This document shows, piece by piece, positions 17,871 through 54,365 of a DNA stretch of 64,000 bases. This DNA is from Peptococcaceae bacterium. GTDB lineage: Bacteria; Bacillota; Desulfitobacteriia; Desulfitobacteriales; Syntrophobotulaceae. The stretch is from NCBI GenBank assembly GCA_012517475.1, contig JAAYUV010000022.1, positions 1-64,000 of the forward strand, read 5' to 3'. A model generated the notes under the pieces. It saw only the letters and a list, made by a program, of their open reading frames with translations, was not told the origin of the DNA and did no database searches. Each line of letters begins with the position of its first letter. Position 1 is the first letter of the stretch. A program made the translations under genes and the position numbers.

Positions 17871-18010
17871 ACGAGTTAACGGCTTTTTCTCCAAATTTAT
17901 TTTTGAGTTAAAGAAAGTTTTACTTATCTCAGAGATTATCCAATAAAATAGAGGGTGTTGCAAAACTACTTAATTAGTTAACGATGCCAAAGTAGCGTTA
18001 TTATCCAGGC

Positions 18011-18200
18011 AGGTCTCCGAAACGTATAGCCGCTTTCGGCAGATCGTGAAGGCCACTAGCCTTCACGCATCCATGGCCGCCGCTCCTTGCCATCCATGGC
18101 ATCGCGGCACTAGGCCTTCCATAGCCGTTTAAACAACCGCGCTCCGCGTCGCGTTACGCATGCGTAACGCGCTTAACGCGATCCATACATTTCGGAGACT
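18011..18200. repeat. Inner inverted-repeat element
   Basis: GGTCTCCGAAACGTAT (18012-18027) and ATACATTTCGGAGACT (18185-18200) form an inverted repeat matching at 14 of 16 positions. Inside are a 9-bp stem CGTGAAGGC/GCCTTCACG (18045-18067), the CCATGG repeat core, and a 22-bp perfect palindrome at 18150-18171 centred on GCATGC. The element is nested within the outer inverted repeats. Confidence 0.7.
18067..18129 (+). repeat. Dispersed CCATGG repeat, copy A
   Basis: The core contains CATCCATGGC twice (18069 and 18091) and a diverged third unit TTCCATAGCC (18118), spaced 22-27 bp, with CGCTCCTTG and ATCGCGGCA between them. The same core occurs at 38952-39019 and, inverted, at 53514-53579. Confidence 0.85.
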
Positions 18201-18349
18201 TAATCTGTGGTCTTTTAAGTATTTCCTGAACAGAAAAAGGAGCCGTTGCCTACGAATTTTATGATTCGTTGTGCAACAGCCCCTATAGATAAGTCGTGTT
18301 TCTCTGTTTCAGGTCCACTATGAAAAATTTGCGAAGAGAATGTTAGATC

Positions 18350-38866: not shown

Positions 38867-38896
38867 CCCTTCGGTTCAAACCGAGGGTTTTTTTTG
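38867..38896 (+). terminator. Rho-independent terminator after the DAK2 gene
   Basis: CCCTTCGGTT pairs with AACCGAGGG (one bulged T) and is followed by eight or nine T residues. Confidence 0.9.
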
Positions 38897-38897
38897 C

Positions 38898-39073
38898 AGA
38901 GAAGCACCTCGCTTGCTGATTTCGCTAATGCACAAAACCTATTGCGGCTCTTTGCCATCCGTGGCCTTGTCGCTCCTTGTCATCCATGACACCGCGACAT
39001 TAGGCCCTCCGTGGCCGTTAACCGTTGTGCATTTTTACGCTGTATCAGCTTCGCTCCCAACGCTTCTCTGCTT
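38898..39073. repeat. MITE-like palindromic element containing CCATGG repeat copy B
   Basis: GCAGAGAAGC (38898-38907) and its exact complement GCTTCTCTGC (39064-39073) bound the element. A second inverted pair inside is AATGCACAA (38929-38937) and TTGTGCATT (39024-39032). The centre carries the dispersed repeat. It occupies most of the 289-bp gap between the DAK2 terminator and sdaAB and encodes nothing. Confidence 0.75.
38952..39019 (+). repeat. Dispersed CCATGG repeat, copy B (diverged)
   Basis: Reads CCATCCGTGGCC, then TCGCTCCTTGTCATCCATGAC, then ACCGCGACATTAGGCC and CTCCGTGGCC, colinear with copy A at 18067-18129. Base substitutions have eroded two of the CCATGG palindromes to CCGTGG and one to CCATGA. 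Confidence 0.8.
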
Positions 39074-53422: not shown

Positions 53423-53510
53423 AAAAGCCCCGTAATGCTGAAAGGGGACACACCTGTGAAGAGAAAATTCTCCGGACAGGAATGTCTCCACCACGTGCTA
53501 CGGGGCTTTT
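53423..53510 (+). other. Long three-part hairpin between acpP and rnc
   Basis: AAAAGCCCCGTA (53423-53434) pairs perfectly with TACGGGGCTTTT (53499-53510). Inside, GGGGACACACCTGT (53444-53457) pairs with ACAGGAATGTCTCC (53476-53489) with few mismatches, and GAGAA/TTCTC closes the tip (53461-53472). The whole 88 nt folds as one rod. It might be an attenuating terminator, a processing site or a mobile palindrome arm; the CCATGG repeat copy C follows at once. Confidence 0.7.
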
Positions 53511-53513
53511 GAA

Positions 53514-53579
53514 GTCCATGGAAGGACAAATGCCGCGATGCCATGGACGGCAAGGAGCGGCGAAAGCCCATGGACGCAT
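53514..53579 (-). repeat. Dispersed CCATGG repeat, copy C (inverted)
   Basis: On the minus strand it reads GCGTCCATGGGC, CGCCGCTCCTTGCCGTCCATGG, then CATCGCGGCA and CCTTCCATGGAC, colinear with copies A and B. It lies 30 bp before the rnc start and leaves an open frame that joins rnc. Confidence 0.85.
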
Positions 53580-53609
53580 AAATGTGAAAGGGGGAGTAAA
53601 TTTATCCCC

Positions 53610-54365
53610 ATGGTTAAGAAAAATAATCGTTACTATCTGAAAAAAAATATTCATCATGATAAGATTCTATATAAAGGTGAAGTCGAATTGTTTTCAAAGA
53701 GACTTGGATTCGAGAATCCCCAGGGCGAGCTAATATGTACAGCACTCACCCACCCTTCCTATACTTTTGAGAATCCCTCCAGCGGATTGGAGAATAATCA
53801 GCGAATGGAGTTTCTCGGTGATGCTGTCCTGGATTTCGTAATTGGTGAGTATCTTTACCTAAATTACCCTGAAAGGCCGGAAGGAGAACTCACAAAAATG
53901 AGAGCGGCAGTGGTCAATGAAACCACGCTGGCCCGGAAAGCCAAGAGCATTGATCTAGGACAAGCTCTTTTTCTGGGTAAGGGAGAGCAATCCTCCGGCG
54001 GAAGGGAAAGGCCTTCGATCCTTGCTGATGCATTAGAGGCTGTGATCGGAGCAATATACTTGCAGTATGGCTTTGAAAAAGTTCGTAAGTTCATACTTGA
54101 CATGTTGGTTCCTGAGATAAAGGAGCTGGATGATGGAAATTACGGAGATTTTAAAACCATGCTTCAAGAAAAGGCCCAGAAAATTGAGTACGATGTGATA
54201 TACCGGATTATAGATGAAACCGGACCTGACCATGATAAACTTTTTACCGCCGGTGTTTACGTTCACAGTGAACTAAAAGGAAAAGGTACCGGCAAAACAA
54301 AAAAAGAGGCTGAACAGAATGCAGCCCGGTTGGCTCTGAAAAAATGGGAGGGAAAAGACGAGTGA
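53610..54365 (+). CDS. rnc: Ribonuclease III
   Basis: 251 residues. It cleaves double-stranded RNA in rRNA processing. The RNase III signature is NNQRMEFLGDAVLDFVIGEYLY with the catalytic Glu and Asp; the second acidic pair is in RPSILADALEAVIGAIYL. The C-terminal dsRNA-binding domain contains GDFKTMLQEKAQK and GKGTGKTKKEAEQNAARLAL. The ATG at 53610 has AGGGGGAG about 13 nt upstream. The frame stays open back to an ATG at 53538 inside repeat copy C, which would add a 24-residue repeat-derived leader; I consider that unlikely. Confidence 0.93.
   Translation: MVKKNNRYYLKKNIHHDKILYKGEVELFSKRLGFENPQGELICTALTHPSYTFENPSSGLENNQRMEFLGDAVLDFVIGEYLYLNYPERPEGELTKMRAAVVNETTLARKAKSIDLGQALFLGKGEQSSGGRERPSILADALEAVIGAIYLQYGFEKVRKFILDMLVPEIKELDDGNYGDFKTMLQEKAQKIEYDVIYRIIDETGPDHDKLFTAGVYVHSELKGKGTGKTKKEAEQNAARLALKKWEGKDE

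Follow-up and report, generated by a model that had tools for sequence, protein, structure and literature searches.

A dispersed double-hairpin unit nested in other palindromes is a candidate mobile element of Bacillota and Gammaproteobacteria

The window, by which we mean the whole stretch of 64,000 nucleotides analysed here, carries three copies of a double-hairpin unit, all of which lie between likely genes in mechanical ORF calls, as the initial annotation had maintained. A covariance model (R1) places copy 1 at 18079-18129 on the plus strand (74.5 bits, E 4e-18), copy 2 at 38969-39019, likewise on the plus strand (72.5 bits, E 1.3e-17), and copy 3 at 53511-53561 on the minus strand (67 bits, E 3.8e-16). 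The three copies reported earlier are thereby confirmed, and their positions had been roughly right, with limits that were off by up to ~18 bp. The mechanical ORF at 53538-54365 reaches into copy 3 solely via an upstream ATG, and this copy looks to be downstream of an acpP-like gene and upstream of rnc, judging by names read off the sequence.

Each copy is accompanied by further inverted repeats, and those initially listed in or beside the copies are exact: two enclose the core, and the third adjoins copy 3. Copy 1 sits within a 333-bp palindromic host element (17951-18283) with the ends GAGGGTGTTGCAAAACTAC and GGGGCTGTTGCACAACGAA (reverse), which gives a nested hairpin fold (z -6.1); inside it, exact arms GTCTCCGAAA (18013-18022 and 18190-18199) enclose the copy, and an extra hairpin, CGTGAAGGC..GCCTTCACG (18045-18067), adjoins it. 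Copy 2 is enclosed by exact outer arms GCAGAGAAGC (38896-38905 and 39062-39071) and by a second, nested pair AATGCACAA (38927-38935 and 39025-39033), a region (38896-39071) whose fold reaches a z of -5.4, and the copy itself shows compensatory stem changes (GTCGC/GCGAC and GTCAT/ATGAC). Immediately 5' of it, a partial unit on the plus strand (38949-38968; model R1 13.7 bits, E 0.06) is the leftover of a tandem arrangement. Copy 3 is abutted by a terminator-like, exact inverted repeat, AAAAGCCCCGTA..TACGGGGCTTTT (53423-53434 and 53499-53510).

The unit measures 50-51 bp and consists of GCCGCTCCTTGCCATCCATGGCATCGCGGC, a linker AYTAG, GGCCATCCATGGCC and GTY. Hairpin A reads GCCGC TCCTT GCCA TCCA TGGC AYC GCGGC and is followed by the linker AYTA and hairpin B, GGCCA TCCA TGGCC, after which GTY ends the unit. 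When 75 non-redundant copies are aligned, the information at the left edge drops abruptly from 1.4 to 0.1 bit, and at the right edge from 1.4 to ~0.1 bit within three positions, just beyond position 52. Neither the aligned copies nor the orthologous sites reveal terminal inverted repeats or a target-site duplication of the unit itself. CCATGG, at first taken for the repeat unit, turns out to be the incidental tip of a hairpin (GCCAT-CC-ATGGC), which in distant relatives is changed to e.g. CGCATCCATGCG with the ATCC loop kept. Tandem units are present at two loci (L095 and L099). Diverged sister double-hairpin units of unchanged architecture were also encountered, namely GTCGATTGCTTTGTCATCC..GTGCCGTC and AGCCATTTATGCC..GTGCCGTTT (L024, L019, L046, L069), and at four loci (L010, L014, L016, L018) hairpin B gives way after ATCC to another hairpin, CGTGAAGGC..GCCTTCACG, in a manner suggestive of template switching.

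The core is far from restricted to the window. With the covariance model we found ~77 copies at E<0.001 in the 3.68-Mb genome to which it belongs (~21 per Mb), a number that is decisive against chance; an initial DNA search of the same genome had returned 41. The count of ~77 is a lower bound, because the assembly breaks inside these palindromes (contigs C5, C12, C74, C95 and C108). Within the order, 52 of 74 genomes are carriers, with up to 64 copies in relatives and 31-64 in each of the five genomes of a single genus (g4), both among the matches listed. A sample of the phylum contained 19 carriers in 398 genomes, 10 of them outside the order, and a second carrier group, which takes the range as far as marine proteobacteria, exists around Thalassomonas in the Gammaproteobacteria (32 of 198 genomes). 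This hairpin repeat is thus widespread, with ~70% of genomes carrying it in one order and ~16% in the sample around Thalassomonas. Exact-pattern matches came from Gracilibacter sp. BRH_c7a, from Peptococcaceae and Syntrophomonadaceae MAGs and from Thalassomonas sp. M1454. The unit was not found in plasmid, phage and E. coli collections, viral contigs held no exact match to it, and Rfam gave no match, whether at the gathering threshold or with E allowed up to 1. Searching by sequence letters or keywords in largely open-access literature, we found no published description of the unit.

A constant core with changing arms had been noted from the three copies in the window, and this holds across the family. 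Of 79 non-redundant copies, 33 have a mutual inverted repeat scoring >=11 between their left and right 150-bp flanks, compared to 5/237 for mismatched flanks (p 2e-12) and 5/241 for shifted positions. Since the controls reach only ~2%, we regard this as a general property of the family. Several loci show how such nesting looks in detail. In the genome under study, a diverged double-hairpin unit is inserted in the hairpin loop of another unit, GCCATC^CATGGC (L046); in Thalassomonas, an empty palindrome (ACCATGGAGGGTGTAG) adjoins a filled copy of the palindrome; and two loci (L220 and L233) have a host palindrome in common but differ in where the unit sits in it and which way round it lies. As such, the unit accounts for giant nested palindromes.

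One of these hosts is a family separate from the double-hairpin unit. The 333-bp element around copy 1 is bounded by GGGGCTGTTGCAMAAC-type ends, of which there are 71 sites in the genome, and 12 of the 77 unit copies lie inside a larger palindrome with GGGGCTGTTGCAMAAC as terminal inverted repeats. These elements come in sizes of 45, 62, 153-167, 235-257 and 333 bp (window 17951-18283; L034, L056, L072, L074, L086), and versions of 153-167 bp, 62 bp and 45 bp exist without the unit. Most members have an A-rich left and a T-rich right flank, by which the element resembles a bidirectional terminator; an autonomous partner was not recognised among the loci retrieved. The presence of those 12 copies within a multi-site palindrome with terminal inverted repeats is reminiscent of the MITEs of DDE insertion sequences, but the unit differs from these in also occurring outside the GGGGCTGTTGCAMAAC element and in having no full-length partner that we could see.

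So what does the constraint on the unit act on? When 30 copies were aligned with plain MAFFT, without fitting to the model, double stem changes numbered 20 versus 4.2 in shuffles, and the observed score was reached by 0 of 500 shuffles. Across phyla there are 206 double changes versus 48 in an alignment of 105 copies that was fitted to the model, such that these counts lean towards structure, and in the same model-fitted alignment the covariation score is 0.446 versus at most 0.113 for slid partners. Stems 1, 2 and 3 vary freely, whereas hardly any change is seen, in either carrier group, at TCNTT, at the first and second ATCC or in the linker. Stems that covary around a fixed set of loops and a fixed linker point to selection on a folded single strand. 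The suggestion that the copies form a plain protein-binding array finds no support, given the covarying stems and the gain or loss of the unit in one piece. Furthermore, G-U pairs make up ~1% of pair cells in the 105-copy alignment and double changes ~15%, a combination that fits selection on DNA better than selection on RNA. We infer that the constraint bears on folded DNA, in both strands, to a greater degree than on RNA, or else that palindromes are corrected from a template.

Rare G-U pairs also weigh against the reading of the unit as a structured RNA, in which dispersed copies would serve as CsrA sites or as a sponge. What prompted it is the GGA that both loops and the internal loop show on the reverse strand, e.g. 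GUACAAGGAUGUAC (L136, L141, L146, L156); in addition, 60 of 74 genomes possess csrA. The GGA loops of that strand resemble the CsrA-binding consensus. However, the GGA strand is the sense strand in only 17 of 49 copies between co-directional genes (p 0.04 in the opposite direction), and some carriers lack csrA altogether (G039 with 7 units and G026 with 2), making a function of this kind highly improbable.

Comparison of orthologous sites provides an indication for mobility. The flanks of 12 copies from one genome (G057) were searched and aligned in three others (G058, G059 and G060), a four-genome comparison that does not polarise gain versus loss of the unit. At one clean site, GGCG-(51 bp)-CAAAAAGCC (L226) stands against GGCGCAAAAAGCC (L250), where the exact 51-bp unit is the sole difference within an otherwise near-identical palindrome, and where there is no target duplication and no microhomology. 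A second clean comparison of filled and empty sites is provided by L214/L247 versus L246, and these two are the only fully clean orthologous empty sites. At L220, L217 and L213, the entire outer palindrome is missing in a relative.

The main rival to enzyme-driven movement is that similar palindromes switch templates and exchange strands as the DNA replicates, units being lost by slippage, all of which would need no dedicated enzyme. It would account for hybrid hairpins, in which for instance GGCCATCC continues into another 3' half (L010, L014, L016, L018), and for an array whose tandem copy number differs between genomes (L221 versus L235). Likewise, two further sites differ by 51 and 50 bp (L228 and L229) with direct repeats at the flanks, so slippage (deletion) is possible there, and the scarcity of intermediates among the double stem changes is also compatible with templated correction of palindromes. 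Conversely, both the clean presence or absence of 51 bp without microhomology at L226/L250 and the copies at many unrelated loci in different phyla would be difficult to produce by template switching alone, and we therefore consider it a rather unlikely, though serious, explanation for the whole. The unit is scattered over many loci, has sharp boundaries and a constrained structure, is either there or missing as a block at orthologous sites, and is enriched in other palindromes; on balance, it is probably a non-autonomous mobile double hairpin of ~51 bp, its mobility being read from presence and absence.

The initial proposal of a REP/BIME-like or MITE-like family is borne out as far as dispersal, high copy number and apparent mobility at empty sites are concerned, and fails with respect to a REP-associated transposase, since Y1 genes are absent or unlinked in carriers. 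A REP or REPIN moved by a Y1 (RAYT) transposase would agree with the size, palindromy, intergenic dispersal and absence of target duplication of the unit, as well as with three Y1 matches in the genome under study and Y1 genes in 50 of the 74 genomes of the order. Yet three carriers that are 99% complete, with 43, 39 and 41 units, have no Y1 (G057, G059 and G060), the order as a whole (74 genomes) shows no association of Y1 with the unit by Fisher's test (p 0.17), and the surroundings of 23 Y1 loci hold no significant unit. On these three grounds RAYT was rejected as the present mover, and this type of mobilisation is very unlikely, although a Y1 gene may formerly have been present and since been lost. 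Another mobilising enzyme is proposed instead.

REP sequences fall into GTAG and CGTC super-families with the tag at one hairpin end (PMC3733652); the main text of that paper names neither Desulfitobacterium, Clostridia nor Alteromonas. Like REPs, REPINs and BIMEs, the unit is short, palindromic and mostly intergenic, with many copies, some in tandem, and strong hairpins; short, palindromic, dispersed and mostly intergenic as it is, it falls under the REP definition in a loose sense. In contrast to a single end-tagged hairpin, it is made up of two unequal hairpins with AYTAG conserved internally as a linker and an end that is mostly GTY, and no RAYT is linked to it. The double-hairpin elements of Allomyces (DHE) and of sponges (RHE) are dispersed in mitochondrial genomes, with mobility inferred from related species and no flanking duplication (PMC2800124). 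Our unit shares these features, residing instead in bacterial chromosomes, and its fixed loops and covarying stems are the reverse of the sponge elements, in which stems are kept and loops vary (PMC2800124). With its two hairpins, its lack of target duplication and a mobility read from presence and absence, it qualifies as a double-hairpin element, which does not imply common descent with the mitochondrial ones. Its kinship in kind is most likely with REPs, MITEs and these mitochondrial elements.

How might such a unit move? It could travel folded as a single strand, lagging-strand DNA being one example, and be recognised through its fixed loops and linker (TCNTT, ATCC, AYTAG, ATCC) and not by stem sequence, by an enzyme other than the resident Y1/RAYT transposase. 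Single-stranded stretches exposed in other hairpins would be the favoured sites of joining, and this would give rise to nested palindromes whose arms differ around a shared core; tandem copies could later expand or contract through ordinary slippage. That the element is known by its hairpin shape and fixed loops, lands in hairpins including its own kind, and depends on an undiscovered enzyme common to Bacillota and Gammaproteobacteria is a more speculative extension, which we consider less likely than not. With frozen loops, freely changing stems and nesting, the unit offers a clean system for the spread of hairpin repeats without RAYT, and direct tests are feasible in carrier genera with complete genomes. 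At two loci from two genera (L026 and L223), units are located in similar tRNA-adjacent palindromic sequence (AAAATGCTTCCATAGGTCGCATTTT).
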